A DNA stretch of 64,000 bases, taken from positions 1,084,001-1,148,000 of the forward strand of contig CANXME010000784.1 in assembly GCA_948144175.1 (NCBI GenBank). Direction: 5' to 3'. The DNA comes from Closterium sp. NIES-65 (taxonomy: Eukaryota > Streptophyta > Zygnematophyceae > Desmidiales > Closteriaceae). Positions 1-51,740 of this stretch are shown here, piece by piece. A model generated the notes under the pieces. That model had not been told where the DNA came from and did no database searches. It saw nothing but the letters and a program-made list of their open reading frames with translations. Position 1 is the first letter of the stretch. Every line of letters begins with the position of its first letter. The position numbers were made by a program, and so were the translations under genes.

Positions 1-2987
1 TGGTGTACAGCCAACCCCCCTCCTGTCCCCAAAAACACCACTCGCCCCCAGTGCCCACCCCAACAGCCCACCTCTTCCTGTCGACCTGCAGCTTATCCAG
101 AGCGTCGATCCTGTTGATCTTGATGCCGGGAGTGTATTCCATCACCAGCATCTGTGGCGTCGTGTATCTCTGCACGCGCACCCTTGCCCCTCCCCCTTCC
201 ATCCCACACTTCCATACCACCCAGACCACAAGGAATCCATTCCGTACCTCTTCCTGTCGACCTGCAGCTTATCCAGTGCGTCGATCCGGTTGATCTTGAT
301 GCCAGGCGTGTATTCCATCACCAGCATCTGCGACGTGGTGTACTGCCAGTATATCTTGGGCACCTTCACATAGTCCATGTCTTTAAAGTTCTCCCGGAAC
401 CTATCAGCATTCTTGCCCTCCTTCATGTAGTCGATTTCCTGTGAGTGGGCCATGGCAGGGTAATTGGGTTGGGTTGGAAGGGGAAGACAGGGTGCGGCAT
501 CTTTGGCTACCTCAGGCACCAAAGATGCGCACACAACGTAGACGGCAACACACCCCCGACAGACCCTCTAACGCCGTCTGTTTCGGCCAACACTTCGCTA
601 CAATCACATACCACTACAATCACACGCCACCACACGCACACCCACCTCATACAGCACGGACGCGCACTCGTCATAGATGGCCACCCAGTCCCGCTTAGCC
701 CCATCCGACTTTGGATCGATCTTCTGCAGGTTCACGGCGAGCACGCGGAGGTTCTTGAGGTCGATGTCAAACAGGTCCTTGAGCCCCGGCCGCTGCACCT
801 TCACCACCACCTCCCTGCCCTGCAGCCGCGCGCGGTGCACCTGCCCCAGGCTGGCCGCTGCGATGGGGTCGCGGTCGAACCGCTCAAACACCTCGTAGAT
901 GGGCTTGCCCAGCTCCGATTCGACGATGGCCAAAGCTGTGTCGGATTCGAACGGCGGCACTTGGTCCTGCGGGATGGCAGAGTGGGGGAGGGGGTGAGAG
1001 TGGTGAGAACGCGATGGGGTCGCGGTCGAAGCGCTCGAACACCTCGTAGATGGGCTTGCCCAGCTCCGATTCCACTATGGCTAGAGCCGTGTCCGACTCG
1101 AACGGTGGCACTTGGTCCTGCAGGAGGGAAAGGTGAAAGTGGGTGGAAGGCAGGGAGCGACGGATGGAAGCGAGGGGAGAACACGATTGGATGAAAGCAG
1201 GGAGAAGGTCAGATAGGGGAAACTCTCGGCCCAGTCTCTGACCTCCAGCTGTGAGAGCTCTGCGATGTGCTCCTGTCCGAGCGGGTGGAGAACTGCTGGC
1301 AACTGGAAGGCTAGTCCCAGCGTCTCTCACCTGCAGCTCTGAGAGCTCGGCGATGTATTCCTGAGCAAGGAGGTCGGAGCGAATGGAGAACTGCTGGCCG
1401 ATCTTGATAAACGTGGGGCCCAGCCGCAGCAGCCCCTCCTTGAGCCAAACAGACCAGGAACCAGCGATCTAGTGAGGAAACTCCGACACTCAGACCAACG
1501 CCCATCCCAGCCCCTCACCTGCAGTTCTGAGAGTTCCGCAATGTATTCCTGAGCCAATAGGTCCGAGCGGGTGGAGAACTGCTGGCCGATCTTGATGAAG
1601 GTGGGGCCCAGCCGCAGCAGCCCCTCCTTGAGCCACCGCGCGAGCTCCCGCCGCCGCTCGCCCTTCTTCGCGTCCGTAACTCCGCCGCGGTACATCCAGG
1701 GGCGGTTGATCAGCCACGCCTGAGACGGGAGAAGGTGCGCGGGAGACATGCGGGTGAAAGTAGAGGAAGCGAGGGGGTGAGCGAAGAGGAAACGTCGGAA
1801 CTGCTGTTTGTTGTCTGTTCGTCGCGTGTGCCCGCTGATAGTCGCCTAGACCGTGTGATGAGCGGCAAAGCCTTTGAGCGCGGTTAAATAGCGGTCTCGA
1901 TATCTGCTTTGATATGCCCGCGTGCTTGATTTCGATTTCCTTCCGTACAGTAACTATGTACTTCCTGAGCGATTCCGAATCGTACAGATGTGCCAGTGTG
2001 ATTTCCATTCCACTTCGTTCCTGATGAACACTAAGCGTATCACGCACCCGACAGCCCCTTATATTGCGTACCTTGACGAGGAAGACAATAACGAAGCTCC
2101 AAATCTCGAAGGTGCGCTGGATGACGGAGTACGTCTTGAAGTGGTTCCACCGTCCGCCTGGCGCCACGGACACCTGTAAACCACGTCAAAAGAATCCAAG
2201 ACGTCTTATTTCAAGCAATTATTCAGGAATCGACCCCCTTCTGGCTTCGAAGACTCGAAGCTACACTAGAAGCGAGACCTGCAGGACCATATTATGCTAC
2301 GGACGCTGTACTAAGAGAGACACCACTTATCACAAGGACATTGTGAAAACGAGTCGATTGATAACGAGGACGAACCTGCACATTGCTAGCCCGAGCCTTC
2401 TCGAACCACGGGCGATCCTCCACTGTAAGCTCCTCCACGCCTTTCGAACCTTCGCCGATCTTCTCCTCCACAACAACAGCAGCAGCCTTTGCTGCGCCGT
2501 TTGTCGCGCCGTTCGCTGCGCCGTTCTTACCGACCTCGTCAGCGAGAACCATCTTCACCGCGCTTCCGTTGCTGGTAGCGATAACCGTCGCTCCGACGAC
2601 TTTCGCTTCTGATCCGTTTGACGACCTTCCCGACGCGCTGTAAAGCGCGCGACCGCCTTCTTCTTCCTCCGGGGTCCATGGGGAGGAGTTATCGCCTTGT
2701 CTAACGCTTCCGTTAGGAGGTGCTTCGATAACAGCGTTAACGCGAAGAGCAGACGAGGAGCGTACACGGTTAAGGGAAGACCTCGCTGGGAGAAGCAATC
2801 TCCCGGCTGGCGTACTAAGTTTTCCAAGAAACGGACTCTTTTGAACGACGAGCCTATTGCGAGTCTGGCCATCTCGACGCGAGGAAGAAATGTCGGTTGG
2901 GGTGCTGCTCGCTGCTCTCACGGAGGAGAGCCCTGAGCGAAGGGCTTGGCTGGTGGAAGCAGCCATTGGAGCTCGAGGTCCGTACAC
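1..2987 (-). CDS. ABC1K8: ABC1K atypical kinase, ABC1K8/OSA1-like, plastid type (3' exons beyond window)
   Basis: Five exons are visible on the minus strand: 2987-2376, 2173-2072, 1719-1519, 966-646 and 438-248. All have GT donors and AG acceptors. The first four contain whole codons; exon 5 ends in phase 2, so the gene continues past the window start. Exon 1 is Ser/Ala/Asn-rich like a plastid transit peptide, with a possible second start seven codons downstream. The following exons read PGGRWNHFKTYSVIQR, KLGPTFIKIGQQFSTR-like (here LRLGPTFIKIGQQFSTR), DQVPPFESDTALAIVE, AAASLGQVHRARL (the ABC1 Ala-rich loop), VVVKVQRPGL (the VAIK-type lysine), and EYTPGIKIN. Motif order and wording match Arabidopsis ABC1K8/OSA1 very closely. 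That family acts in plastid membranes in prenyl-lipid and oxidative-stress homeostasis. The C-terminal kinase lobe is outside the window. The introns contain extra copies of pieces of exons 3, 4 and 5. Confidence 0.9.
72..170 (-). repeat. Diverged copy of the 3' part of ABC1K exon 5
   Basis: This stretch repeats the last ~100 nt of exon 5 (248-345), including the words coding MLVMEYTPGIKIN and the exon-end splice donor (GAG|GTGGGC). It lies downstream of the true exon in transcript direction. There are several substitutions, so it is not an assembly duplicate. It could be a pseudo-exon or an alternative exon end. Confidence 0.8.
1011..1117 (-). repeat. Diverged copy of the 5' half of ABC1K exon 4
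   Basis: It repeats the splice acceptor and first ~105 nt of exon 4 (966 downward), coding DQVPPFESDTALAIVE through DRDPIA. It lies about 45 bp upstream of the true exon in transcript direction. The copy stops just before the conserved AAASLGQ segment and so cannot replace the whole exon. Confidence 0.85.
1243..1447 (-). repeat. Two diverged copies of the 3' part of ABC1K exon 3
   Basis: Copy one (about 1243-1308) and copy two (about 1331-1447) repeat the end of exon 3 (1519 upward), which codes LGPTFIKIGQQFS and AQEYIAELSELQ. Each ends in its own GT donor. With the true exon this makes three successive donor-bearing versions in a row. The shorter, first-listed copy is the more diverged. Confidence 0.8.
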
Positions 2988-3988
2988 CTATGGGAATACG
3001 GAACTTGAGCTTCGAGCCAAGAAAATGGACTGGTGTAATTAGAACCTGTAGGTTCTCCTGTGTGGACTCGGCCCGGCGCCGGCTACTGTGTTTCTGAAAA
3101 TCCCTAGAAACACCGACGCAATGCTGAGCAAGAGAGGGGACCTCGAGATTGGAAAGTGAAAAGAGATGTGAGAGATGGATGAAGAAATGGTCGAAACTCG
3201 ATTGAAGGAAGCGTGACGAGGAGACGAATGTGCTGTGCTGTGCTGTGCTCCAAGCTCAAGGCTGGCTGCCAGTTCTGATTGCTGGGCAGAGAAATGTATG
3301 GGGAGGGGACTGCGAAAACAAACATTTTCACTAATGGACCGACTTTCAGGCCCTGTGCTTTTGCCACTCAGCAGACATCCCCAGGTTGAAATAGTAAATT
3401 ACTGGATGAGAAACGATTTATGTGTGCTAGCACAGGTTCTGTACGGTGATGATTCTCTGGCGTTCATGCAGAGCCTTCGTCCGGACTTCTGCTCCACCAT
3501 GCCCTCAAGTGCTCTGCACTTGGCCGTTCTGAACTGGATTCTGAACTGTTTTGCCCAGAAAAAAAATATCAGCCCCAAAGAGAAAGAATCTTTAGGCCCT
3601 CCGCGACGCGAGTTTGCTAGGCTGAAAATGAAGACCACATGGGGATGAAATCCCCAACTTCAGGACACTTTGCGAAGAGACGGCCACGTGTAGTCGCGAT
3701 TTGCTCACACGTTTCTGACCACGAAAGTCATGTGCTCAGCTGGAATGGATGCTGGGGGGATGGGGCGTGAGGATAAATGCTGAACCCGATATATGAAGAG
3801 TTAGATAATCAAAATGTACACTCTTCAAAGCACACATGAGAGTTACATTTCTAGAAACACTCTTCGATGCTTCGGACAACATCTGCTGCTGACACTGATC
3901 AGAACTCCTCCATAACATGACGTCAACCCCAAACACGTGGGCGAGTAGTTTCCGTTGACGCTTTTCCGGATCGCATCAGCAACCGTCC
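2988..3988. promoter_or_regulatory. Divergent intergenic region between ABC1K and CCR4-like genes
   Basis: About 1 kb separates two start codons pointing away from each other, so it should hold both promoters. I see no convincing TATA element. A short GTGCT microrepeat lies near 3230-3250. A 137-codon open frame at 3235-3648 matches nothing I recognise and has no splice or family support. Confidence 0.5.
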
Positions 3989-6900
3989 ATGGTCACCATT
4001 TCTCGCTCCGGATCTTCAGCGCTGAAAGCCGCTGCGGCTATCCAGTACCTGCGATGCGATGCTCTCTTAACCGCACATTCCGTGTCCCGCGCTCCAACCG
4101 CAGTTACCAGTAGTCGCCTGTCGCTACTCATCAGCCCGCGCGGCTCGAAGAGTCTCGATTTCAGCAGCTTCCGCGTTGCCAGAAGCTGTCCAGATTCCCG
4201 TCTCTCCCCTTCTCGGCTTACTTATTATAATCTGGCTTGTTTGTTCCCGAGATTCACACTCGTTTCCTTAACACCGCCTGAAGTTACTACTTTCAGTGCT
4301 AGTAACGCTTCGTGCACTGAGGTTCCTCGACACAGGTTGTTTAGTCGGCGCGCAGGCCGCTGTGCGGACATGGGTTATGAGAACAGCAGCCCTGGGATCC
4401 CGGGAAAACTGCCGGGAGGTGCGGAGGCGGTGGATCGAAGTCAAGCCGGATCAGGAATCGGAACTGAATCAACGCCCCCCCATAGCTCGAACGGACTGGA
4501 TCAACGGCCGGGGGTTCCCGCACGCGGGGAGTTTGCGGAAAACGGGGAAGCCACGGGGAAGTTCGAAGCTGGGAAGGGAAGGAAGGGAACGAGGATCGGG
4601 GAGCGGACAAGCGGGGGAGTGGGGAAGATGGGCGAGGGTGGAGGGGAAGAGGGAGGCGAGAGGAGAAAGGGAGAGAAATTTAGGCGAGTGAAGGAGAAAG
4701 GGAATCGGGAAAAGGCTGAAAAAATGACAAATGGGGGGAAGCGCGGGGAACGGGGGGGGGAACGCGGACGCGGAGGCGGAGGCGGAGGGGAAGGAGCAAC
4801 ATTGATGATTCCGGAGTTTCAGGCTGTCGGTGGGGAATCAAGGGCAATGGGGAAGGAGGGTGAGTGAGGACATGAGCAGATAGTGATGCGATGATTGGAG
4901 AATGCTTTGTTTTTTATTGGTTGAGCGGGATTTGGGGTTTTGAGAATTCTTACAAGTGATTCCAATACAACTGGGGATTGGGTTTCGATGGGGAGGGATG
5001 CATGGCGATGATGGGTCATACAGTTGGGATTCTATTACTCTTCTTCCATTCGCGTTCTTTCCCATACCATTCTGTCTCTTCCTGTCCGTCGCCCCTCCCC
5101 TCTTCTCTCCCTCGCCTCTCTCCCATTATTGCTCCCTTCGGCAGGCCTGTCACTTCGTGTCATCTCCTACAATATCCTGGCGCAGGCATGTGGTGTGAAG
5201 GGGTGTGGTGTGGTGTGGTGTCGTGTGGTATATTGTGGTGTGGAGTGGTGTGGTGTGGTGGTGTGAATGTGCATTTGAAGTCCATGTCATGTCATGTAAA
5301 TCTGGACGTGATTTTCATGTCCGTGTGCGTGTGCATTTTTCTTTGCATGCCACGACTTGCATATGTGTGTGTTCATCATGTGTTCATGTCAAATCCATGA
5401 CAATGTGCAGTGCATAAGCCCTCTCACATGTGTGTCATCTCATCTGCATAACTCACTCTCTCGCAGGCATACGTCAAGAGCGAGCTTTTCCCCCACTCAC
5501 CGCCACAGTCCCTCAGGTACTGTTGTTGTTGTGAGCTTTTACCGTACGGCAACACAGCGCCTTCCTTGCTTTCCCCGCCTCCTTACCATTTCCCCCCTTC
5601 AATACTGGAACTATCCCTTCACCAGGAATAATTTTGCATCTCGTCCGCCTTATTTTGAGTCGACTTAAAGCTCATCGCCTTCCTTGCTTTCCCTGCCTCT
5701 CTTCCATAATTCTTCCCCTATTTATTATCAAACTATCCCTCCACCAGCAAGAATTTCTCATATCGCCTTCCTACTTTTGCTTCCTATCTCATGCTGAAAC
5801 GTTCCCTTCCCCAAAAGCGTCTTCCGCCCTCCTCCGCCCCCCCCCCCCCCACCCCCAACCTCCCCGCCCTTCTTGCCACCACCAGGCAGAGGAATCGGAT
5901 CAAGGTGCTTCTCACGCTGCTGTCGGCCCTTTCTGCTGACTTCCTCTGTGTTCAGGTGACCCGTGCTCCCTACTTGCCCCATGCTCTCCCCTCTCCCCCT
6001 CCCTCCTCCCGCCTACCAGGCAGAGGAATCGGTTCAAGGTGCTTCTCACGCTGCTGCCGGCCCTCTCTGCTGACTTCCTCTGTGTTCAGGAGATGGACGA
6101 GTACGAGGCAGTGTATCGCCAGCCGATGGCAGCTGCGGGCTGGGAGAGTGTGTATGTGAAGAGGCCAGGCAAAAAGAGGGACGGAAGCGGCATCTTTTAC
6201 CGATCTAGCAGGTGAGCGTGGGATGAATGAAAACTCATTTCAGAATCAAGGCTGGTTTGAGGAAACTCATAAGATGCAGGGAAGAATGTGGGATGAAATG
6301 AGTAATTTTCTGGCTTCTCTACTGGTCGAGTGACTGATATAGGAAGTGTGAGTGCAGTGCGACATTTTTCTGATGGTTTCTCCGAATCGCTGACATTCGG
6401 TGTCGGTCGGCTCATCCGTGTCTGCTTCTGGCTTCCCCGAATTGCTTCCTGATGGTTTCTTTTCCCTTGCTCCCCCAGATTCCGCCTGCTTCGCTGGCAA
6501 CCAATCAACTTCAACGACCTCGTTCCCCCAGACCACCCAGACCAACCAAACCAGCCGGCCCAAGCAGACACTCCCAGTCCCGACTCGTCCGAAGAAACCC
6601 GAGACCTATCCGCCTCCCATGTGTCGGAGGCGACTGAGAAACCAAGTGCCGGTGCTGACCTGTCTGAATCGCGTGACCTGCATGATCCGCGTGTTCGCTT
6701 CAAGCGCGACTGTGTCGCCATTGTTGCGGCGTTCCAAGAAAGAGCGAGTGAAGAAAAGGAAGGAGAGGAGGCAGAGGATGGGGAGAGCATGGCAGGAAGG
6801 GAGGTGGTTAGGGAAGGGAGAGGAGGAAGAGGAGGAGAGAGAGGGCAGCAGGGAGAGGGGCGAGTGGTGGTGGTGGCGTCATCTCACATATTCTGGTCCG

Positions 6901-8535
6901 TATGTGTGGCGTGTCATTTTTTTTTTCTCAACACCAAAAACTGGTTTGTTATCAACCAGAGGAATTTTCTTGTTATCTTGTGGTAGCTTTTTTTCAGCTG
7001 CCCACACATGTTGTACCATACATAGCATGCCATTATGCCACACCTCCATACCATACCATTCACACATGCACCATCCACCATCCCACACCCCCCCACACCC
7101 CCCCAGAGATCTATCATGTGCAGATGTGAAGCTGGCTCAAGCACACTACCTGCTACAACAGGAGGCATGGCTCTTCTGAGTCGACTCAACAGTCAGCATC
7201 ATACACACCATTTACACTCATCATGCACCATCCACCATCCCACTTCACCCCAGGGATCCAGCATGTGCAGATGTGAAGCTGGCTCAAGCACACTACCTGC
7301 TGCAGCAAGTGGCACAGTTCCGATCCTCTATAGTCCCCTCCGCACACAGTCACACATCTGCTAGTGTCACAAGTGCGGCAGGCAGCACACCGGTTACCAT
7401 CATCTGCGGCGACTTCAACTCTCTTCCCGGTGACCCTGTAAGTAATTTTATTGAAGTCCCGGCCCCTCTATACAGTCAGCTCTGACCCGTGCTAGGCACA
7501 TCATGCCCTTCTGCCAGTGCCACTAGTGCGCCAGGTAGCACGCCAGTCACCGTCATCTGCGGCGACTTCAACTCTCTTCCCGGTGACCCTGTAAGCTCAA
7601 CTCTTGGCCCATGGTGACTTTAACTCGCTCCCTGGCGTCATGGTGCCCGGGCGCGTCATGGTGCCCGGGCGCGTCATGGTGCCCGGGCGCGTCTGCAGCT
7701 GCAGATTCCCCTGCGCCTGGAGCTGCAATTCATGGTGCCCGCCCGGGCGCGTCATGGTGCCTGTCAGACCTGCTATCATCACATCCGCATGCAGTCATCC
7801 TATGTATGAAGCCGAATATCTGTGTGTGTGCGTGGGTGTGTGCAATAGGTAAGCACCCAATTGTTTTCATTGTTTACCCACCCATTGCAGGTGTATGAGT
7901 ACCTGACATCAGGCCAGGTCCTCCCCACAACACTAGCAACACCACCGGAAGCAACAGCAACATCAAGAGCACCAGATGACTCAGCACCAGAAGCAGCAGC
8001 ACCAGAAGCATCATCAACAGATGCACCTGCATTTCCAATCGCACCCATACCACTGGCAAGTCTTAATGCTACAGCTGTCAGCAGAGTATTGGCTGCTGTA
8101 CCAGTTGATGCTGCAGAAGCACGAGACGCAGCCACAGCAGCAGAAGCAGGAGAAGCAACAACGGGGCGAGTTGCAGCAGGAGAGGTTGGAGGAGCAGCAC
8201 CAGCAGAATCAGAGGCAGTGGGATGCGATGGCAAGAAACAGGAGGATGGTAGTACATCGGTCCATGAGGCAATGAAATCTGCCGGTAACAGTATCAGAAT
8301 GGAAGATATGGTTGAGGGACGAGGTTGTGGGCAAGAACCGGAGCTGACAACGTTCAACCCGCCCTTTTGTGGAACGATTGATTATGTGCTTGTATCGAAG
8401 GATGCAATGCCATTTTCGGTTACGTCAACCTTATGGCTGCCAAGCAGGGAAGATGCTAGGCTTGGGATGGGCCTTCCGAATTTGTATTTCCCGAGTGATC
8501 ACCTTCCGATTGGTGGGGACATTATATTCGAATAA
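3989..8535 (+). CDS. CCR4-4-like EEP (endonuclease/exonuclease/phosphatase) family nuclease, probable deadenylase
   Basis: The seven-exon model is 3989-4859, 5145-5185, 5467-5516, 6020-6211, 6479-6895, 7254-7437 and 7891-8535, giving 799 residues with every junction in frame. Exon 1 gives a ~290-residue Ser/Ala then Gly/Glu/Lys-rich leader that may hold an organelle-targeting peptide. The nuclease domain follows: VISYNILAQ (catalytic Asn), YVKSELFPHSPP, DFLCVQEMDEYEAVY (metal-binding Glu), KRDGSGIFY, DPRVRFKRDCVAIVAAF, SSHIFW/DP (catalytic His), ADVKLAQAHYLLQ, ICGDFNSLPGDP (Asp and Asn), GTIDYVLVS and PSDHLPIGGDI (Asp-His). This order matches plant CCR4 homolog 4. That family shortens poly(A) tails with Mg2+. 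Acidic and Gly-rich inserts and a long Ala-rich stretch between the GDFNS and DYVLVS blocks make it longer than the Arabidopsis protein. Intron 2 appears to use a GC donor. The stop codon lies inside an AATAAA. Confidence 0.9.
5196..5275 (+). repeat. GTGTG-type simple repeat in CCR4-like intron 2
   Basis: A G/T-only stretch with a roughly five-base beat (TGGTG/GTGTG) starts a few bases after the inferred GC donor. It looks like ordinary microsatellite sequence. Confidence 0.7.
5562..5760 (+). repeat. Tandem duplication inside CCR4-like intron 3 with palindrome at the junction
   Basis: About 85 bp starting CGCCTTCCTTGCTTTCCC occurs twice (about 5562-5645 and 5674-5760) with substitutions and small indels. 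Between the copies, at 5653-5669, is TTTTGAGTCGACTTAAA, an imperfect version of the palindrome in the DUF819 array. Confidence 0.65.
5886..5955 (+). repeat. Diverged copy of the 5' part of CCR4-like exon 4
   Basis: Seventy bases repeat the head of exon 4 (6020 onward), with the same CACCAG acceptor context and NRxKVLLTLL...DFLCVQ coding. The copy then has its own donor (CAG|GTGACC) exactly where the true exon continues into the metal-binding Glu. Splicing it in would break the catalytic core. Confidence 0.85.
7107..7172 (+). repeat. Diverged copy of the 5' part of CCR4-like exon 6
   Basis: It repeats the acceptor and first ~65 bases of exon 6 (7254 onward, coding ADVKLAQAHYLLQ). It is followed at 7174-7199 by a palindrome-bearing sequence, and then by a second copy of the intron tail (CACCATCCACCATCCCAC) leading into the true exon. 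The duplicated unit is therefore intron tail plus exon head. Confidence 0.85.
7520..7590 (+). repeat. Diverged copy of the 3' part of CCR4-like exon 6 (GDFNS motif)
   Basis: It repeats the last ~70 bases of exon 6 including ICGDFNSLPGDP and the GTAAG donor. A third, shorter echo (GDFNSLPG) starts near 7614. The active-site block thus occurs about three times in 240 bp, but only the copy at 7437 joins in phase to the last exon in the model. Confidence 0.85.
7635..7692 (+). repeat. 18-bp tandem repeat in the last CCR4-like intron
   Basis: CGTCATGGTGCCCGGGCG is repeated three times in tandem, with another partial unit near 7733-7762. It directly follows the third echo of the GDFNS segment. Confidence 0.85.
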
Positions 8536-8615
8536 AAATGTCTTCTGGAATAATGTCTATTCTGTTAAGCTTGTAGTGTCACCATAGAAGTGGTTAATCT
8601 GAAGAGATTCTCTTA

Positions 8616-8764
8616 GGGCGTATTCCTATCCTCCTATCAAGAAAACCTCCTATCAAGCTCTCACTGGAAAATTCCCTAAACCCAAAATCTCTCGCTACTT
8701 TTACCAGGCAAAATGTACAATCTTGATAGGAGGTTTCTTGATAGGAGGCCGTAGGAATACGCCC
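8616..8764. mobile_element. 149-bp MITE, PIF/Harbinger-like, TSD TTA
   Basis: The ends are inverted repeats starting GGGCGTATTCCTA and flanked on both sides by TTA (8613-8615 and 8765-8767). Inside each arm CTCCTATCAAG occurs twice, so almost the whole element can fold into one hairpin of about 45 bp per arm. A 3-bp TWA target duplication and GG-start ends are typical of Harbinger MITEs. There is no coding capacity. It sits about 80 bp after the CCR4-like stop codon. Confidence 0.8.
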
Positions 8765-8767
8765 TTA

Positions 8768-9538
8768 GTGTTGATATTTGCAGTGTCGGCAGCAACTGTA
8801 TTCGGAAAATAAGCTACTAATTTGTCTAGAATCTGGTGTACCTTTCTTGCAAATACGCGTATCGAAATCTGTTAAAGCGAGCCGCGAAAAGAGCGCGGGA
8901 AAAATGTCGGCATCCTTATCCACACGGAGTATTTAGACGGCTTCATGATCAGCCCAGCAACAGCAGCAGCAAGTATTGACCTTTCGTTCGTCTCTGTTCT
9001 GGGAGCCTGGAGTGTCAGTGGGTTGAATCCACTCATTATCCAGCCCAAGTACACCAGCTGTTGTGGAAAGAGCTGGTCAGGAGGCTCATGAACGTCCAGG
9101 AGTAATGCTTGGCGTTTAATTTTTTATTCGAACGTTCAGCGTGATTTCGTGGGCTATGGACCTGTTCTCGTCGCATTTTTTCAGGTCCTAAACGCTGAAT
9201 TCCTTCTTTTTCTCACGTGGTGGCGAAGAAAAGGCTCATGAGTATCACGCTCACCTCAGAATGACACACAGTTTCATGATTACTCATTTTCATTTATAAC
9301 ATTGCTAAAGAGCCGACTCAAAAGCAGATTATTATCCATTTTCTGTTATAAAATTCCGAACCATCCTCGCGAGGAGCATTCTTTCCTGATAGTACCGGCG
9401 CTCGAATCTTCTCATCCTGATATACCCGCAGCTAGGACGCATTGACGAGTTTGTCTTCTCCTCATTGTCCTTTTGAGGCGCCTCAATAACAGTTTTAGGA
9501 CGAATTGACGGGTTAGTCTCCTCCTCTCCTCCTCAGTC
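8768..9538. promoter_or_regulatory. Upstream region of the DUF819 gene
   Basis: This is AT-richer, non-coding sequence between the MITE and the DUF819 start. It should contain the DUF819 promoter and 5' UTR. I see no clear TATA box or long repeat. Confidence 0.4.
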
Positions 9539-12500
9539 ATGCCATTCCGGTCTGTAGCAGCAGCGGCGCCGTTTCATCAGGCTGCCGCCACAGCCGCTGC
9601 CGCCACATCCGCTGCCGCTAGATGCTCTAGCAGAGAGGATTTTACCCGGAGACGCACATGCTGTAGCAGAGGAGGTATAATATTTAGCCGTAGCATTGAC
9701 AACCTTGGCTGTAGCAGAAGCATTCACAATCTAGATGCGACAGGCTGTAGCAGAGAGCGTGATGGGAGCCGCCGTGCCAGCAGCCTGGCTGCCGAGACCG
9801 CCGACGGCTGTAGCATTGGGGATTCCAGGAAACCACGTGCCGCCCACGAGTCAGTTCGGACAACCGGGCGCGGCTGTAGCATTGCGGCTTACAGGAAGCC
9901 ATGTGCCGGCCACGTGGCGGTTGGGAATGGGACGAACAGCGGATGTAGCGCAGCTGCTACAGCCGCAGGGGCGGGTTCGTTGGGCGTGCTGATCGCGATT
10001 GCATGCGGCGCGGCTGTAGCAGGTGTTGCCATGCCGGTTCATGCTGCTACGGCTGTCGCTGCTGCCACTGGTGCTGCTACAACTGCCGCTGCTACAGCCG
10101 CCGCGGCCACCGGTGCTGCTACAGCTACAGCCGTCGCTGCTGCAGGCGACGGGCTGTCAGACGGAGCGGTCTGGGCGGTGCTGTGCGCGTGCGCCGCTGG
10201 CGCCCAGGTGACTATAACGAGCGTGCTCAACTCACATCGTGATTTCTATTCTCTCACCACGACTAGTAAATCCCAAGTCAATAATCACTCTGTTTTCCCT
10301 CCTCTCCTCCTCCCCCTTTTCCCCACCATCTAACTCCGAGCAGCGCACAGAATACGGCTAACAGGTGACTTGGGTTACCAAAGTCACTCCGTTCACTCTA
10401 AACGCTCTCTCTCCCTCTTTTCCCCAGAGTCACTTCCTCTGCCCCATTCTGCCCCTCAAAATTGAATCTGTACCCATGGCCATGCTGTGTGCTCTCTTGT
10501 CTCTTTCTTCACTATGTGCTCCCTGTGTTTCCCACATCCACCCGTCTCCCCTCCTACTCCCCTCAGCTGCTAGACCAGCGCACGGCATGGGGCCAGCAGG
10601 TGTCGTCAGTGCTTCTAACCATGCTGTGAGCTCCCCGGTCTCTGTCTTAACTGTCTGCTCACTGCATTCTCCCCATCCACCTCCCGCCCTTCACACCCCT
10701 CAGCTGTTGGAGCAGCGCACGTCATGGGGCCAGCAGGTGTCATCGGTGCCTACCACTACGCTGACTTTTGAGTCGACTCAAAAGTCAGCAGCGCACGTCA
10801 TAAGGCCAGCAGGTGTCATCGGTGCCTACCACTATGCTGACTTTAGAGTCGACTCAAAAGTCAGCAGCGCACGTCATAAGGCCAGCAGGTGTCATCGGTG
10901 CCTTCCACTACGCTGACTTTAGAGTCGACTCAAAAGTCAGCAGCGCACGTCATAAGGCCAGGAGGTGTCATCGGTGCCTACCACTACGCTGACTTTTGAG
11001 TCGACTCAAAAGTCAGCAGCGCACGTCATAAGGCCAGCAGGTGTCATCGGTGCCTACCACTACGCTGACTTTTGAGTCGACTCAAAAGTCAGCAGCGCAC
11101 GTCATAAGGCCAGCAGGTGTCATCGGTGCCTACCACTACGCTGACTTTAGAGTCGACTCAAAAGTCAGCAGCGCACGTCATAAGGCCAGCAGGTGTCATC
11201 GGTGCCTACCACTACGCTGACTTTAGAGTCGACTCAAAAGTCAGCAGCGCACGTCATAAGGCCAGCAGTGTCATCGGTGCCTACCACTACGCTGACTGCT
11301 CACCGGATTTTGTTCCAAGGTCTCCTCTCACCTTTTCCCCCTTCTCATTCCCCGATCATCCACCTCCCGCCCTTCAGCTGCTGGAGCAGCGCACGTCATG
11401 GGGTCAGCAGGTGTCGTCGGTGCTGCTAGCCATGCTGTGTGTTCACTGTATTCTGATTGAAGGTCTTTCGTCTCCCCTTTTCCGCCTTCCCCATTCTCCC
11501 CATCATCCACCTCCCGCCCTTCAGCTGTTGGAGCAGCGCACGTTGTGGGGTCAGCAGGTGTCGTCGGTGCTTCTAGCCATGCTGCTCAACCTCTAAATTC
11601 GTGAGGTCTCGCGTCCCCTCTTCTCCTCCCCCCTCGTCTCTCCAACCTCCTCCCCCATCCCCCTTCCCCCCCTCAGCTGTTAGAGCAGCGCACGTCGTGG
11701 GGTCAGCAGGTGTCATCGGTGCTTCTAACCATGCTGTGAGGCCTCTCGTCTCGTTTCCCCATCCACCCCTCACCCCCTCCCCTCTCCTGTCCCACCCCTC
11801 AGTTGCTGGAGCAGCGCACGTCGTGGGGCCAGCAGGTGTCGTCAGTGCTGCTAGCCATGCTCGCAGCAGCCGTGCTGGCCTCCCTCTCAGTGCTGCCCAC
11901 CGCCTCTCCCGTCTATGATTTTGTAAGCGAGCGGCAAAAATATCGTGAGCGCACGTCGTAACGTTGAGCACGCCGTGAAAATATCTTCGCAGCCGAGTTG
12001 TCTTTTTGTTCGTTTGTTTTCTTTACTTCCTGTGCTCACGATTTTGTGAGTTCCTCTTCTTTCTGTGCCTGCCAATCAGGTGTGGACACGTGTCATGCCC
12101 ATGGCCGTGGCTCTGGTGCTGTTAGAAACAGATGTGACGTCAGCATTCACACAGTCAGGTGAGGCATACATCATCCCGTGCCATTCTATGCTATGCAGGA
12201 CCTCACAACAAGCTACCATATGTCATCCCATGCCCATGCCATGTCCATGCCATGCCAACAATGCCATCCAATGTCATGCTGCCTCGCCTTATCACATGGA
12301 TTACGCCCTCTCTCTCCCGCTCTCTCCACCCCCACTCCCTTGCCTATCCCAATCAGGCCGGCCTGCTAGCCTTCCTTCTGGGCGATTTTCGAAACGTCTC
12401 AAAATCGTCTCTCTCCTCTCCCCCCCTTCCCCTGCCTTCCCCTCCAATCAGGTCCCGGCCTGCTAGCATTCCTGCTGGGTGCAGCGGGCACGATTGCAGG

Positions 12501-15351
12501 GACACTTGTCGGCTTCTCATTGGCCGGGCCCTCCCTTGGGGTGGAGGGGTGGAAGGTGGCGGCTTGCTTCTGTGCGACGTACATCGGTGGTAGTGTTAAC
12601 TATGCTGCCACTGCTAAGGTGAGGAGAGAGGGAGAGGCAGAGGGATGAAGGAGAGACAGAGAGAGAGTACTAGGAAAATGAAGGGTGCCGGCCTGCTTCT
12701 GTGCTGCGTACATTGGGAGGAGCGTGGACTACACTGCCACTGCTAAGGTGAGGAGAGAGGGAGAGGCAATGGAAGAAGAGAGTTGAGTTTCAAGAACCTC
12801 CTCGTAGCCGCCTACTCTCCCTACTCTCCGTCCCTCTCGCTGAATCTCCTCTTCTCACCTGTTCACACATCCACCAGGCTCTAGGCATGGACATCACAGC
12901 AGGGGCAGCAGCAGCCAGCACGGGAGCCAGCCTACTCACAGCAGGCATGGCGGTGGACAACCTCCTCGTGGCTGCTTACTTCTCGGTGCTTGCTGCTCTC
13001 TGCCTCCCTCCCCTCTCACCACCACACACCACAGGCTCTAGGCATGGACATCACAGCAGGAGCAGCAGCAGCCAGCATGGGGGCCAGTTTTCTGACAGCA
13101 GGCATGGCGGTGGACGATCTCCTCATGGCCGCTTACTTCTCAGTGCTCTATGTCTCCCTTGCTCCTCCCGTCCGTTCCTTCCTGTATGCACATGCATATC
13201 AGGCCCTGGGCATGGACATCACAGCAGGAGCGGCAGCGGCCAGCACGGGAGCCAGCTTACTCACAGCAGGCATGGCAGTCGATAACCTTCTCATGGCCGC
13301 TTACTTCTCGGTGCTTGCTGCCCTCCCGGACTCCTGGCCCAAGCCGTGGGGTGGGGAGAGGTGGGGAGGGGTGAAGATAGGAGGCAATTCTGATGAGTCG
13401 GAGAAAAAGCTAGATACAGGGCTTTCGGCTCCTCTCCTCCACTCCTCCCCGTCTCCTTCCTCTCCTTCTCCTTCCGCCTCTTCTTCCTCTTCCTCATCCT
13501 TGCACACTCCTGCTCCTCTGCCGTCTCCCTCCCCTCCCTCCTCATCCTCCTCACACCTCACTCACTCTCCACCCCCCGCCCCCTCGGTGGAGTCCCTCAC
13601 TCTCTCCATTGCCGCTGCCGCCTCAGCATGCGCGCTAGCGGACAAAATTGCTGTCCACCTGCCGCCCGTGATGGCCTCGGCACAGCTGGCGCTTGCCGCC
13701 CTGCTGGCCTCCCTCCTGTCGACTGTAGCAGCCAGGCTGACAGGGCGGGGGGAGAAGAGAAAGGAGGGAGAGGAGGGAGAGGAGGGAGGTTCACTGTTCA
13801 CAGGAGCAGAAACGCTTGGAAACTCCCTGATGCTGGTCTTCTTTGCAAATGTAAGCTTATTTTCCAGGCGCCTAAAAAATTCACTGTTCACTGTCCACAG
13901 GAGCAGAGACGCTTGGGAACTCCCTAATTCTGGTCTTCTTTGCAAATTTAAGCCTTCCTGCGCGCCCATAACCGAGCAAGTTAATAGTCACCCCCTTTCC
14001 TTCATGGGCATCAATCAGCGTTTTCCAGGTACCCTTGAGATGTCCGAGGGCAGTAGGATTTCGGGCTTTAAGCTAGTACACAAGATGGTGCTGCAACCGT
14101 TGGTGCTACCTAATCCGTCTTGACCATTTAGCTACCCTTTACCCTTTCTCTGGCAGATAGGAGCGTCAGCAAGTGTGTCTGAAGCCATGTCCGCTGGTGG
14201 TGGTCTGCTTGCATTCGTTGCAACTGTGTTAATGGTATGTCATGGCTGCTGCTCATTGGTGATGGCTCCTGAAAATTGTAGTTTGAAGGAGTCGTTCTTT
14301 CCACCACAAGTTGCAATCTATTCCCTTTAGTTGTTTTGTTCTCTGTTCTCTGTTTTCCCTCAGCCACTCGTAGGCATTTCCAAACTCCTGATCTTTCCCC
14401 CTTTTCCATTTCTTGCTGCACGATCCGCCCGCCACATCAGGTTCACATTGTAGTAGTTCTTCTAGGGGGAAGACTTCTCAACATCCCACTTGATATTGTA
14501 AGTGCTGCATCCTTTTCCTTATGCAAGCTTTTATTAGCGCTGATGCTCTGGCTCCTTACCCTCTTTTTTTGTCCATCTAGTTCCCATACAGAAACTTGCG
14601 GAACAATGTGGAGTCAGTTAAAAACACACTGTCACAGCATCACATATGTTTTTCCGTATAGTGATTTCCTATGCAGATGAATGGAGCAAAGAAAACAAAA
14701 AAGAACGAAAAAAAAAAAAAGAGAAGAAGAAGAAGGTGTTCTGTCTTGTTACTCTTCTCCTTCTACCCCTCTGGTCCCTCATTTCGTTCCTTCCCTAGCA
14801 TCTCTTCCATGGCTGCTTCGAGACGCCAAATAACCTCCCTTATGTCGCTTCCCTCCTTGCTTCTCCATCCTTTCCCATCCCCCCCCAATCAGCTAATGGT
14901 AGCATCCAATGCCAATGTGGGGGGTCCTGCCACTGCTGCTGCTATGGCCAGTGCCCGCAATTGGCCCCAACTGGTGAGACCAGCTACAGTGTTCAGGTTT
15001 TTTGTTGGGTTTATCGTCTAGAAACCTGCACTGTCTGTACTGGTAACACATGGGGTTTCACAGTGTGAGCGATTTCATGGTACAATATACATTCCACTGG
15101 TCCATCCAACTGCCACTCCCTATCCTCTCTTCACTTGCATCAGCAGCATTGCTTCATTCAGCCCAGAACATTCAACAATATGTTTCTGCTGTAACAAAGA
15201 AAACCCATTGCTGTATCCCTTGAATTTTCAGGTGCGTCCTGCAGTGCTACTGGGGACATTTGGCTATACCATCGGAACAGCCATTGCCTTTCTACTTGGA
15301 ATCAACGTGCTACAGCCCATGGCAGCAGCTGCTTTTGCCCAAGTACTGTGA
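9539..15351 (+). CDS. DUF819 family integral membrane protein, probably plastid-targeted
   Basis: The nine-exon model is 9539-10207, 11803-11922, 12080-12158, 12452-12618, 13203-13850, 14157-14234, 14441-14497, 14893-14973 and 15232-15351, about 672 residues. Every exon except the 79/167-nt pair is phase 0. Blocks match the plant DUF819 proteins (Arabidopsis At5g52540/At5g24000 type): SDGAVWAVLCACAAGAQ, PMAVALVLLETDV, LLAFLLGAAGTIAGT, YIGGSVNYAATAKALG, LTAGMAVDNLLMAAYFSVL, ASNANVGGPATAAAMASA and GTAIAFLLGINVL. The family is a multi-pass membrane protein of unknown function. Exon 1 codes a long Ala/Cys/Ser/Arg-rich N-terminus that may be a transit peptide, though its reading is repetitive and less certain. 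A Ser/Pro-rich loop (about 13430-13590) separates two membrane blocks. Introns carry copies of exons 2, 4 and 5. Confidence 0.88.
9550..10145 (+). repeat. Dispersed CTGTAGCA/TGCTACAG octamers in DUF819 exon 1
   Basis: CTGTAGCA or one-base variants occur at least eight times between 9552 and 10020. The inverted form TGCTACAG or close variants recurs four or so times from 9950 to 10130. Spacing is irregular and the reading frame of the motif changes, so this is a DNA-level repeat rather than a protein repeat. Confidence 0.6.
10567..11739 (+). repeat. Serial copies of DUF819 exon 2 head in intron 1
   Basis: The first ~60 bases of exon 2 (11803 onward, coding LLEQRTSWGQQVSSVLLAML) recur after CAG acceptors at about 10567, 10704, 11378, 11525 and 11677, each in CT-rich intron context. 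Between the second and third lies the 76-bp array. All copies stop before the exon's second half, so the copy at 11803-11922 is the complete exon. Confidence 0.85.
10716..11300 (+). repeat. Eight-unit 76-bp tandem array derived from DUF819 exon 2, with palindromic spacers
   Basis: Units begin GCGCACGTCATAAGG at 10716, 10791, 10867, 10943, 11019, 11095, 11171 and 11247, an almost exact 76-bp period. Each has ~45 bp of exon-2-like sequence plus a spacer. The spacer contains a palindrome, for example 10760-10789, 30 bp centred on GTCGAC. Some units carry a one-base variant (TTTAGAG instead of TTTTGAG). The array ends where a unit lacks the spacer. Confidence 0.9.
12357..12384 (+). repeat. Short copy of DUF819 exon 4 head
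   Basis: After an AATCAG acceptor, 28 bases repeat GGCCTGCTAGC-TTCCT-CTGGG of exon 4 (12452 onward, coding GLLAFLLG) and then diverge into intron sequence. Confidence 0.7.
12681..12747 (+). repeat. Diverged copy of DUF819 exon 4 tail
   Basis: This repeats the end of exon 4 (coding ACFCATYIGGSVNYAATAK in the true exon), including the GCTAAG|GTGAGG donor. It lies ~65 bp downstream of the true exon end. Confidence 0.8.
12878..13150 (+). repeat. Two diverged copies of DUF819 exon 5 head
   Basis: Copies starting at 12878 and 13035 follow CAG acceptors and repeat ~115-130 bases of exon 5 (13203 onward), coding LGMDITAGAAAAS and AGMAVDxLL. Neither has an obvious donor at its end. The third version continues into the rest of the exon and is taken as the used one. 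Confidence 0.85.
13880..13950 (+). repeat. Diverged copy of DUF819 exon 5 tail
   Basis: It repeats the last ~60 bases of exon 5 (coding GAETLGNSLMLVFFAN) about 30 bp after the true donor. Its own donor position reads TTTAAG rather than GTAAG, so this copy looks unspliceable at that point. Confidence 0.75.
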
Positions 15352-16065
15352 ATTGCCAACAATATATCAGAAGTCTTTTCTTTTGAGGACGAACGCCTGG
15401 CATGCAGCCAATGGTTCTCTGTTGACAAAATTATGCCCTGGCCGTTTCAGTTTATGTCAAAGAAGTAGCCCGGGGGGCACCTGGAAAGTATGCAAAGGCC
15501 CTCAAATAAATTACAAAATGGGGTGATTAATCACAACAATACTTAGTGTAGCCAAGCGTTGCTATCCTGCAAGTGCACACATTTCCTAAACATTAGTATT
15601 GTCCATCGATACTTCAGTAGCCTGGTACTGTGCGTCTAACCCGACGCAGTCTCATTCTGTGTCTCTCCGCGCCTTGCGGCGCGTCTGGCGCGGACCTTGG
15701 GCATGATCTTCTTCGCAAGGCGCACTATCCAAAGCCACATGATGTCGTGCGACGCGCGACGCGGAAATTTTACGCGTTGGACGCTTCCCCCTCTGAGTGA
15801 ATAGGTTATTTAACGGGAGTTCGCGAGAGCGCTGACGTTCAGACGGTGCAGTGGGTTAGGCTGGGAGAGGAGGAGGTAGACTGAAAAAGTACTGCGATGC
15901 ACTTCAGATGCTGAGGAACACTGAGCACCGAGAGGACTTTTGAGGCACGCAACGCAGGAGCTAAGGATCAGAGCAGTGAATGGAAAACAGAAAAGCAAAG
16001 GAACCAGCCAAATGTCGACGTGAACTAGCTTCTGATTCGCATCACCCCAACAAACTGCTTATGTA
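15352..16065. other. 3' flank of DUF819 gene; no gene seen
   Basis: An AATAAA at 15505-15510 may serve as poly(A) signal. The remainder is unique-looking non-coding DNA with a GC-rich patch near 15660-15780. I see no further gene. Confidence 0.4.
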
Positions 16066-17094: not shown

Positions 17095-17615
17095 CTACCC
17101 CTCCCTCAAGAAGCCCCCTCCGCTCCGCGAGTGCGTGTATATTGCGGAAACCCCGGCTCCTCAGGTACACTTGCAGGACAGGGTGGTTTTCGATGTTGGC
17201 CAGGGGCACCCAGCTATCTTCAGTAGGCGTGCGATCCTTCCAGCGAACGAGGAATTCAATCCTCTTGATTCCCGTGGCCTGTCGAATCCGATGGCTCAAG
17301 ATTTTTTCTGGCTCAATGATCGGCTCCGATGCAGGGCGAGTCATGGATGGTGGGCGGTGACGAGGCAGTTCGCTTGTGGTTGGGACATATGGGCGAACCA
17401 GGCTGACGTGGAATGAAGGGCTGATGTACCACTCCGTCGGCAACAGTAGGAGGGCTTTCACTAAGGTATTCATGTGGCTGATTTGGAATGGTCCACAGTA
17501 GCGGGGTCGCAATTTTGGTACGACGGGCAGTCTTAAGTTCTGTGTCTCGAGCAGTATGTAGTCTCCTGACTGGTGCGTGACTGAGCTGCGGTGGCGGTCA
17601 GCGTTGCGCTTAGCA
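17095..17615 (-). pseudogene. Gypsy-A integrase tail and chromodomain
   Basis: Minus-strand coding contains RPRYCGPFQI and WYISPSFHVSLVRPYVP, the usual C-terminal integrase region. These are followed by IEFLVRWKDR and EDSWVPLANI, a chromodomain. Chromodomains direct integration to particular chromatin in chromoviruses. This is part of the fossil Gypsy-A. Confidence 0.8.
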
Positions 17616-19114
17616 TGTCAGAATGTTATAATTGTGTAGCCTGCAGTGGGGTACTCTATAGCGAGTACAACCCAATTAGGGTTTCCTATATGTATGCCAA
17701 CTGCTGCTAGTGCAAATCCTCCTTTTGCTCACTCTTGTTGATGCTAACATGGTATCAGAGTAGGTCGACCCTCCTGGGTCGATCCTGTGGGTGGGCCCCA
17801 CCCGATGCTTCAGCTGCTCTACTGCTGTCGCGCGCCCCGGGCGCGCGACCCTATCTTCCTGCCGCGCGCTCGGAGCGCGCGGCGTTTTTCATCCCGCCGT
17901 GCGCTCAGGGCGTGCGGCGGTTTTCTGCCCGCCGTGCGCCCCGAGGCGCGCCTGCTCGTCATGGCGACCCCGGGGACCTGCGCACTGCCCTCCGTCGTCC
18001 TCCTCCCGTCGCCTCGTTGCGGCGCCCTGGGGGCCCGCGCGCCGGCCCCTTCCGTCGCCTCTTCGCGGCGCCTTGGGGGCCCGCGCGTCCCCCCTCTCCC
18101 GTCACCTCGTCGCAGCACCTTGGGGGCCCGCCCGTCGCCCCCCTCCCGTCGCCTCGTCGCGGCGCCTTGGGGGCCCGCGCGCCGCCCTCACCCGTCGCCT
18201 CGTCGCGGCGCCTTGGGGGCCCGCGCGCGGTCCCTTCCGTCGCCCGTCGAGCCGCCCTCAGGGGCCCGTGCGCGGCCCCCCTCCCGTCACCCGCAGTGGC
18301 GCCCTCGGGGGGCCCGCGCCCTGCTCTTTCTTGGCGCCCAGGAGACCCCCCGACGCCACCCTTTCCCTTTGTGAAGCGCCCCTGCTGCTTCCCGCGCTCC
18401 TGCCTTAGTTAGGGTTTGGGGGTGGCGGGCATGGGGGTGACCGCTGTGGGTAACCTGCAACTCCTCCTCCTTCTCTGTCTCCCACTTCTGCAGCTGCCGC
18501 TGAGGGGGGTGGGTGTGTGGGAGCCGAGGGTTTAGGGTTTAACGGGGGTGACGTGGGAGTGGAGCTAGGGGTGCAGCAGGGGGTGTGTGGAAAGGAGGTG
18601 GGACTGTTTGGGGAGGCTGAGAGGAGGCCGCCGTCGTGTCGTCCGCAGCCCCTGTAGTCCGGAGCCCTCACGCTCTCGGTAGCCCAGAGAGCCTTGCTGT
18701 GCCAGTCGCCTGTGGGTCCGTTGCTCCTACCGCTCGTCGTAGTCGCAGAGCCAGATACTCCCATAGTCCGGTGCCATCGTGCGCTCGGTAGCTACTGTGT
18801 CAGTCCTCCTGGTGCCCGTGTGTCTGCAGCTTCAGCCGTCGTCTCCCATCTTCTCTCCCCTCACAATTCCTCCTCCTCCTCACTTGCCCTCTGTGATCGC
18901 CTCTAGCTTTGCTTATAATTGTGAACTATTACGATGCTTGCTCATTGTGCTGATTACACCCCACTTTGGCTATGGGGATGTGTCAGAATGATATAATTGT
19001 CTAGCCTGCAGTGGGGTACTCTATAGCGAGTACAACCCAATTAGGGTTTCCTATATATATGCCAACTGCTGCTAGTGCAAATCCTCCTTTTGCTCACTCT
19101 TGTTGATTCTGACA
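17616..19114 (+). mobile_element. TRIM-a: 1.5-kb non-autonomous LTR element, TSD TAGCA
   Basis: LTRs of 134 bp lie at 17616-17749 and 18981-19114 (about 5 differences), flanked by TAGCA on both sides. The primer site TGGTATCAGAG follows the left LTR directly, and a polypurine tract (CTATGGGGATG) precedes the right LTR. The 1.2-kb interior is GC-rich and non-coding, with tandem GTCGCCTCGTCGCGGCGCC-like units at about 17990-18310. LTR ends, primer hairpin and polypurine tract resemble the copia elements in this window, so it was probably moved by their proteins. It lies inside the Gypsy-A integrase region. Confidence 0.85.
17750..17805 (+). promoter_or_regulatory. TRIM-a primer-binding site and adjoining hairpin
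   Basis: TGGTATCAGAG follows the LTR. Arms TCGACCC and GGGTCGA around a TCCT loop come next, then GGGCCCCACCC. The position matches the copia elements, but the stem sequence is different. Confidence 0.65.
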
Positions 19115-19119
19115 TAGCA

Positions 19120-28183: not shown

Positions 28184-28380
28184 CACCCCCATAGGCAAAG
28201 TGGGGGAGAACAAGGGGTCACAAGACTAGTCAAACAAAGCAAAGCAAGCTCAGGGTGGATCACAACGTCACCACACAGTCCGAGCACAAGAGCAAGGCCA
28301 CAAGACCAGTTCACATGCAAGATCATATATGAAGGTGAGCAAGCAAGTGCAGGTATAGAAAGATCACAGTACAAGCAAGG

Positions 28381-39719: not shown

Positions 39720-40600
39720 TTTTTTCTGCCCTAGCGCCCGCCCTAGCGCCCGCCCTAGCGCCCGCCCTTTCGAGCCGCCCGTTAGCGCCGCCCGTTAGCG
39801 CCGCCCGTTAGCGCCGCCCGTGCGGCCGCCCGTTCGCGCCGCCCGTTAGCGCCGCCAGTAGCGCCGCCCGTGCGGCCGCCCGTAGCGCCGCCCGTGAGCC
39901 GCCGCCCGTGAGCCGCCGCCCGTCGCGCCACCCGTTAGCGCCGCCCGTGCACCGCCGCCCGTGAGCGCCGCCCGTGACGCCGCCGCCCGTGAGCCGCCGC
40001 CCGTGACGCCGCCGCCCGTGACACCGCCGCCCGTCACGCCGCCCCCCCCGTGACGCCGCCGCCTGCCACGCCGCCCGCCCGTGAGCCGGCGCTGCCCGCG
40101 AACCGCCCACCCGTGGGCCTTCAGCCCGCTCGTGAGCCGCCGACGCCGCCGACGCCGCCCACGTCGCCCGTGAGCCGCCGACGCCGCCCGTGAGCCGCCG
40201 ACGCCGCCGAAGCCGCCGAAGCCGCCCTTAAGCAGCCGACGCCGCCGACGCCGCCCGTGAGCCGCCGACGCCGCCGACGCCGCCCGTAAGCCGCCGACGC
40301 CGCAGACACCGCCCGTGAGCCGCCGACGCCACCGACGCCGCCCGTGAGCCGCCGACGCTGCTGCCGCCGCCGCCGCCCGTGAGCCGCCGACGCTGCCGCC
40401 GCCGCCCGTGAGCCGCCCTGGCCGCCCGCCCAGCCGCCCGTGAGCTCCCCGCGCGCCGTCCCAGCCGCCCGTGAGCCGCCTGAGCCGCCCGAGCCGCCCG
40501 GGCCGCCCGCGCCGCCCTAGCCACCCGAGCCGCCCGAGCCGCCCGAGCCGCCCGAGCCGCCCGAGCCGCCCGAGCTGCCCGAGCCGCCAGAGGAGCTGCA
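39720..40600 (+). repeat. GC-rich tandem-repeat leader of Copia-F
   Basis: GCCGCCCGTGAGCCGCCGAC-type units form most of this stretch, ending in GAGCCGCCC hexamer-like runs. Confidence 0.7.
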
Positions 40601-50999: not shown

Positions 51000-51740
51000 G
51001 GCGGCGGCTGACACGGCAGCGGCGGCGGCGGCTGCTGGTGTCGGCGGCGGCGGCGGCGGCGGCGGCTGCTGCTTTCGGCGGCGGCGGCTGCTGCTGCCAG
51101 TGGTGGCGGCGGCTGCTGCGGCCGAGGCAGGGGCGGCGGCGGTGGACACGACAGCGGCGGCGGCGGTTGCTACCGTCGGCGGCGGCTGCGGCAGCTGCTG
51201 TCAGCGGCGGTGGCGGCTGCTGCGGCCGGGGGAGGGGCGGCGGCGGCTGAGAAGGGGCCGCGGGGCCACTAGGGGCCGTGAGAGGGGCCGCGAGGGGCCG
51301 CGAGGGGCCGCGAAAGGGCCGTGAAGGGGCCACGAGAGGGGCCGCGAGGGGCCGCGAGGGGCCGCGAAGGGCCGCGAGGGAGCCGTGAGTGGGGCCGCGA
51401 GGGGCCGCGAGGGGCCGCGAGGGGCCGCGAAGGGGCCGCAAGAGGCCATGAGAGGGGTCGCGAGGGGCCGCGAGGGGCCGCGAGGGGCCGCGAGGGGCCG
51501 CGAGGGGCCGCAAGGGAGCCGCGACAGGGCCGCGAGGGGCCGTGGGAGGGGCCGCGAGGGGCCGCGAGGGAGCCGCGAAGGGGCCGCGAGGGGCCGTGAG
51601 AGGGGCCGCGAGGGAGCGGCTAAGGGGCCGCAAGGGGCCGTAAGAGGGCGCGACGGGCCGCTAAGGGGAGGGGACGCGAAGGGAGGGCAGGCACACGGGG
51701 CGCGAGTCGGGCAGGGGCGAAGCGCGCTCCGGGCAGGAAA
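51000..51740 (-). repeat. GC-rich tandem-repeat leader of Copia-C
   Basis: (GGCGGCGGC)n-type sequence, then long runs of GGGGCCGCGA decamers, with no reading-frame support. Confidence 0.7.

Follow-up and report, generated by a model that had tools for sequence, protein, structure and literature searches.

Why do three neighbouring genes of Closterium sp. NIES-65 carry diverged pieces of their own exons in the adjacent introns? The window (the whole stretch of 64,000 nucleotides analysed) holds, within its first 15.5 kb, three intron-bearing genes: an ABC1-type kinase gene (ABC1K) on the minus strand, and a CCR4-like nuclease gene and a DUF819 membrane protein gene on the plus strand. A sequence-only reading had reported exon-piece copies in all three, and a self-comparison of positions 1-15500 confirms them. 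The answer that we favour, and to which we give about an even chance, is that tandem duplications crossing exon borders have arisen here recurrently, some of them tied to a short palindrome, and that the older copies may still be exchanging sequence with functional homologues.

Once its exons are spliced, the ABC1K protein aligns with solved ABC1 kinases continuously across the exon joins, and solved relatives of the CCR4-like protein include PDE12, angel homolog 2, CNOT6/6L and nocturnin. The gene models, on which the border counts rest, were built from sequence alone, without cDNA (Table 1; in our script labels, ABC1K e4, e5 and e6 are exons 1719-1519, 966-646 and 438-248, and CCR4 e3 is exon 6021-6211). 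Rfam gave 0 matches in positions 1-16000 at gathering scores, and among viral contigs we found neither a relative of the ABC1K protein nor an exact match to a 40-base stretch of exon 2.

Much of the remaining window resembles, to the eye, what we take to be LTR retrotransposon sequence. A possible small non-autonomous LTR element at 17610-19115, with ends of ~120 bp, internal repeats of 47 bp and TAGCA on either side, appears by eye to be nested inside another retroelement. The retroelement part holds a tandem duplication of 385 bp at 28278-29050 (95% matches), and long G+C-rich minisatellites lie beside retroelement coding stretches at 39728-40592 and 51253-51668. Between the CCR4-like and DUF819 genes sits an inverted-repeat element (8612-8768; arms of ~47 bp) that looks MITE-like, with TTA ends (by eye).

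Table 1. Host genes, exon-piece copies and palindrome-associated repeats (window coordinates; S and N, synonymous and nonsynonymous differences)
Feature	Position	Strand	Details
ABC1K-like gene, partial	248..2966	-	runs past window start; PF03109 194.7 bits; PDB ABC1/COQ8 relatives
ABC1K exons	2966-2376, 2173-2072, 1719-1519, 966-646, 438-248	-	splice sites read from sequence
Copy of tail + donor of ABC1K exon 438-248	71..169	-	downstream; 92.8%/97 bp; 32 codons S=6 N=1
Copy of head of ABC1K exon 966-646 with own acceptor CAG	1013..1117	-	upstream; 89.8%/118 bp; 35 codons S=10 N=0
Copy 2 of tail of ABC1K exon 1719-1519	1243..1300	-	shorter, deletion, donor GTCAGA; 74-75%; last 29 nt S=4 N=3
Copy 1 of tail + donor of ABC1K exon 1719-1519	1331..1447	-	88.7%/133 bp; 38 codons S=10 N=2
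CCR4-like endonuclease/exonuclease/phosphatase gene	3989..8535	+	7 exons (model); Exo_endo_phos PF03372 38.8 bits
Intron-only duplication, CCR4-like gene	5555..5779	+	5555-5657 / 5673-5779; palindrome 5653-5670 at junction
Copy of head of CCR4-like exon 6021-6211 with acceptor	5887..5955	+	ends CAG/GTGACC; 89.1%/101 bp; S=1 N=2
Copy of head of CCR4-like exon 7254-7438 with acceptor	7106..7167	+	81.0%/121 bp including intron; S=2 N=2; palindrome 7174-7191 follows
Copy of tail + donor of CCR4-like exon 7254-7438	7510..7595	+	89.5%/86 bp; S=6 N=3; 43-nt identical tract p=0.0022
24-nt fragment encoding GDFNSLPG, CCR4-like gene	7613..7636	+	against true exon, 6 synonymous, 0 nonsynonymous
Direct repeat around palindrome 9306-9323	9276..9355		upstream of DUF819; 22/28 bases alike, 2 and 4 bases away
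Direct repeat 9433-9463 / 9496-9526 around palindrome 9471-9488	9433..9526		upstream of DUF819
DUF819 gene	9539..15351	+	9 exons (model); PF05684 92.6 bits
Array of head copies of DUF819 exon 11803-11922, intron 1	10567..11736	+	clear copies 10567, 10704, 11378, 11525, 11677
Perfect palindrome TTTTGAGTCGACTCAAAA	10766..10783		repeats with 76-bp array, 7 occurrences, 10766 to 11222
Copy of intron end + head of DUF819 exon 12452-12618	12320..12382	+	7 codons S=2 N=0; then palindrome 12387-12404
Copy of tail + donor of DUF819 exon 12452-12618	12684..12782	+	83.2%/101 bp; S=7.5 N=5.5; 35-nt identical tract spanning donor, p=0.0008
Copy 1 of head of DUF819 exon 13203-13850 with acceptor	12878..13000	+	37 codons S=11 N=1
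Copy 2 of head of DUF819 exon 13203-13850 with acceptor	13035..13148	+	37 codons S=13 N=3
Copy of tail of DUF819 exon 13203-13850	13886..13953	+	91.2%/68 bp; S=3 N=2; palindrome 13861-13878 precedes; donor lost, TTAAGC in place of GTAAGC

At E<=1e-6, the self-comparison of positions 1-15500 returned 47 direct repeats, 28 of them with a shift below 500 bp, and 12 inverted repeats; each of ten dinucleotide shuffles gave 0 at the same cut-off. Direct pairs number 19, 20 and 39 in three other 15.5-kb pieces of the window, all retrotransposon parts. What sets the three genes apart is thus not that they hold repeats but that the repeats lie across exon borders. Across the three gene models, 11 of 37 borders bear copies (9 of these 37 borders belong to ABC1K, 12 to the CCR4-like gene and 16 to DUF819), and at all 11 the head copies lie upstream and the tail copies downstream of their own exon, just as the sequence-only reading had described heads with acceptors before the exon and tails with donors after it. 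Its counts (at least four in ABC1K, four in the CCR4-like gene, at least ten in DUF819) also hold, at 4, 4 (one being the 24-nt fragment 7613-7636) and 17. The 17 DUF819 copies comprise five clear exon-2 heads, seven further units of a 76-bp repeat (spanning 10787-11297 in intron 1), a head and a tail of exon 4, and two heads and a tail of exon 5. The 76-bp unit, an exon-2 head fragment plus the palindrome, forms a minisatellite of 7.7 copies at 10711-11297 with 97% matches. By eye only, two smaller remnants can be made out at about 10338 and 12794, and tblastn with the exon peptides gave, among the matches listed, no convincing copy at other borders.

The copies are direct, adjacent and in the same orientation, as tandem genomic duplications are, and the duplicated unit clearly includes intron sequence at the CCR4-like exon-6 head, the DUF819 exon-4 tail and the exon-2 array, but beside DUF819 exon 5 the intron match is at chance level. 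The self-comparison also shows similar duplications away from the borders: one lies within an intron (Table 1), the other (9805-9860 / 9871-9926) in a coding exon. These are the same kind of event as the border copies. The earlier proposal of a process that duplicates segments across exon-intron borders is thus well supported, by the layout of the copies and by these two duplications alike.

How could such duplications survive in genes? Small tandem duplications, with shifts of ~60-190 bp, would be frequent in this stretch of the genome, and one that spans a border would be tolerated when the outer splice site remains in use. If an intron end and exon head are duplicated, the last acceptor would join the rest of the exon, leaving a dead head upstream; if an exon tail and intron start are duplicated, the first donor would join the exon body, leaving a dead tail downstream. 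Since the mRNA would be unchanged in both layouts, the geometry would need only frequent small duplications and the loss of harmful ones. Selection would presumably purge other placements in coding sequence, so that those spanning a border, those lying within introns and harmless in-frame ones survive; the geometry is seen directly, and the filter is what we envision behind it.

Could the assembly itself have produced the copies? The earlier reading had argued from their substitutions that they are not assembly duplicates. The differences are mainly synonymous in many copies, and on their own they do not exclude an assembly origin, since diverged haplotypes would differ too. Pieces of diverged haplotypes or homoeologues joined end to end would account for the synonymous divergence, the intact splice sites and the introns that fail to align, with no need for new biology, and the copies, at ~70-130 bp, have lengths in keeping with this. 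Yet the window contains 0 N, and two or three haplotypes fail to explain five clear exon-2 heads together with a 76-bp array at 97%; nor do they account for exon 5 in three states, the loss of a donor or a palindrome common to the junctions of different genes. We regard such an artefact as rather unlikely.

The codon-level differences tell more about the history of the copies. A neutral copy drifting beside a conserved exon is expected to accumulate many replacement differences. Such decay was simulated with equal time on both branches and a neutral copy (400 draws each, giving a p floor of 0.0025) for 17 copies, the seven array units, the ABC1K copy 1243-1300 and the two remnants being left out. 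Neutral decay was rejected at p<=0.05 in 11 of the 17. The differences are almost purely synonymous in the ABC1K copies, the DUF819 exon-5 copies and most DUF819 exon-2 copies, and when intron copies are compared with one another, 8 of 23 differences are nonsynonymous where ~16 would be expected (p=0.0002-0.001). To the eye, the intron-only duplication shows no significant codon-phase pattern (5, 5, 9).

Plain border-spanning duplications that decay neutrally, with the synonymous bias as a sampling accident, would match the geometry. Individually, six of the 17 copies do not reject neutral decay: in the CCR4-like gene the exon-4 head (p=0.86), the exon-6 head (0.60) and the exon-6 tail (0.08), and in DUF819 the exon-4 head (0.27), the exon-5 tail (0.37) and the exon-2 copy c10567 (0.16). 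In fact, plain decay fits the CCR4-like exon-4 head and exon-6 tail and the exon-2 head c10567, and also the three palindrome-linked copies open to the codon test (joint p=0.47, with one of the three offering seven codons only). It fails over the set, in which nonsynonymous change does not run at the neutral rate: Fisher's combined p is 2.7e-8 for 12 representatives and 2.5e-7 when each family is represented by its worst member, and it is still 5.3e-6 without the 24-nt fragment and 4.4e-4 without ABC1K. Moreover, the introns beside the DUF819 exon-5 heads are identical at only 17-20 of 50 positions, which is chance level, while the heads themselves keep 86-89%. Decay of this plain kind is therefore an improbable account of the whole set.

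Two other sources of the synonymous bias were dropped: CpG transitions, because transversions are common among the ABC1K copy differences, and, by reasoning, simple back-conversion within one chromosome, because it would lower silent and replacement differences alike.

Are the copies then kept in place for the protein that they encode, as alternative exon ends or small whole exons that are sometimes spliced? The synonymous bias, between copy and exon and between copy and copy, is what such constraint would leave. Of the 17 splice dinucleotides examined, 16 are intact (acceptors in 11 of 11 heads, donors in 5 of 6 tails; neither the 24-nt fragment nor any array unit has a splice site to count). 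Copy 5887-5955 could be spliced in, since it ends in a donor of its own and the homologous point of its true exon reads, by eye, as a matching acceptor, TTCAG/GAG; the tail copy 1447-1331 has an open frame with TTTCCTCACTAG just before it (by eye). Most other copies, judging by their ends as read by eye, apparently could not be spliced into a normal protein: they are exon pieces that lack a partner in frame, each DUF819 exon-2 head would end at 59 nt, before GTGAG, and so break the frame, and among the other shifts 151 and 157 bp are not divisible by three. An exon of eight codons with six silent changes, as fragment 7613-7636 would be, is hard to imagine. Constraint in place is unlikely; mutually exclusive exons fail as well, the copies being heads or tails of longer exons (phase by eye).

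The introns beside the copies were compared as well. Next to the DUF819 exon-2 heads, 24-38 of 60 intron positions are identical; unrelated acceptors give 14-33 of 60. With intron identity so low and the splice sites intact, exon pieces and splice signals have been kept and intron sequence has been lost. In 3 of 10 alignments, identical tracts of 35-43 nt adjoin diverged sequence (p 0.0008-0.002), and the other seven show no clustering of differences. These long tracts suggest patchwise exchange.

We thus return to recurrent duplication followed by exchange. Many older copies have diverged so strongly at synonymous positions that they would have spent most of their history in a functional version of the gene, or been copied from one. 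In our view the most probable route is exchange, whether by gene conversion or by unequal crossing-over, with alleles or homoeologues of these genes that are diverged but functional. We infer that such exchange fits the silent differences, the intact splice signals and the lost introns together. Two layers of copies are likely: a younger one, partly palindrome-linked and decaying, and an older one whose exon part is still protein-like. Several facts speak against exchange. No donor homologue was seen in the sequence analysed; none of the copies (0) is identical to its own exon, as recent local exchange should sometimes make them; at ~0.3-0.5 per site, the synonymous differences are very large for alleles; and DUF819 exon 2 would require several distinct donor lineages. 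In the portion of the Closterium genome study available to us, the genomes are described as hybrid and multi-copy (PMC10407611).

What, then, does the palindrome contribute? TTTTGAGNCGNCTCAAAA occurs at seven independent sites, and at every one of them it sits immediately between the two copies of a direct repeat. Counting as a match at most three mismatches to TTTTGAGNCGNCTCAAAA, there are 13 matches in positions 1-15500 and none in 15501-64000; the 13 amount to seven independent sites because the 76-bp array repeats the palindrome. Allowing four mismatches gives 16 matches, against 0-5 in shuffles, and palindromes in general show no excess (37, against 26-42 in shuffles). A match lies in 5 of the 13 gaps between paired copies and is missing from 8. 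The centre reads TCGA, GCGC or ACGT; with the bases changing and the symmetry staying, the palindrome has been kept despite base changes. It is found, as read from the sequence, only between the copies and is absent from their outer ends, and was therefore added rather than duplicated.

At all seven sites direct repeats of 28-121 columns abut the palindrome within 9 bases on both sides, though six of the seven were noticed through lying at junctions, so that the independent check is site 9306 only (base rate 0.7-1%). Such abutment on both sides occurs at 266 of 5040 scanned positions (5.3%) and at 25 of 3447 (0.7%) outside known duplications. Under a simple flank-score null the palindrome sites do not stand out (p 0.08-0.29), since the duplications themselves are among its random positions. 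Junction sequences are alike in 11 of 105 pairs; random sets average 1.9, and 1 of 300 attained this number. At the two weaker matches to the motif (4938, 6255), no repeats abut. No exact match to CTTTTGAGNCGNCTCAAAAG was found among viral contigs, nor were the palindrome strings found in the literature searched.

The palindrome sites resemble a ~30-bp insertion with very long target duplications. In a subset of the events, a ~30-bp palindrome may have been inserted with a long target duplication, or may have provoked a break; the association is directly visible, and either mechanism is a proposal. A bolder reading, which we consider doubtful, joins the two observations: an ultra-short palindromic element with long target duplications would accompany intronic exon-end copies under purifying selection at the protein level. 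The element would be TTTTGAGNCGNCTCAAAA with its arms, ~26-32 bp, and its target duplications ~28-121 bp. Insertion near an exon edge would repair itself by duplicating the splice site, leaving an exon-end copy in the intron, and unexpressed copies would trade sequence with the functional exon, which would make a bad copy dangerous.

If the recurrent duplications that we favour prove genome-wide, this genome would be a natural laboratory for intron lengthening and for the gain of decoy splice sites. That non-coding exon pieces keep their protein sequence would then be a trace, open to measurement, of ongoing exchange between intron and exon, or of unnoticed splicing. As a candidate mobile sequence the palindrome would rank among the smallest, and its target duplications would be unusually long.

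How do these copies compare with known systems? Introners are reportedly insertions with target duplications that come to lie inside introns. Here, related ~30-bp inserts with direct repeats are found at seven sites, two of them upstream of a gene; unlike in introners, it is the exon edge that is repeated, and no more than ~30 bp of insert is shared. A published survey of vertebrates found exon pieces matching introns of the same gene, more commonly than full-exon duplications (~4-7% of genes); the part of that survey available to us does not describe synonymous constraint or junction palindromes. Small tandem duplications can arise through fill-in of staggered breaks by CST/Pol alpha-primase (PMC8355091). 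As described in the accessible part of that report, they are, like ours, direct, local and without homology at their ends, but come from Cas9 breaks in mammalian cells, are mostly <100 bp and have no shared palindromic insert. In the potato RNA-dependent RNA polymerase gene, a tandem genomic duplication crossing a border yielded a new intron, seen by RNA-seq (PMC4974935). As far as the available part of that report goes, an intron end and exon head were tandemly duplicated there as here, with ten differences between the copies and a second duplication, of 83 bp, in the neighbouring intron. The potato case is one event in one gene, whereas here 11 borders in three genes are involved, with both heads and tails, and the copies are much older, synonymous-biased and, at some junctions, accompanied by a palindrome.
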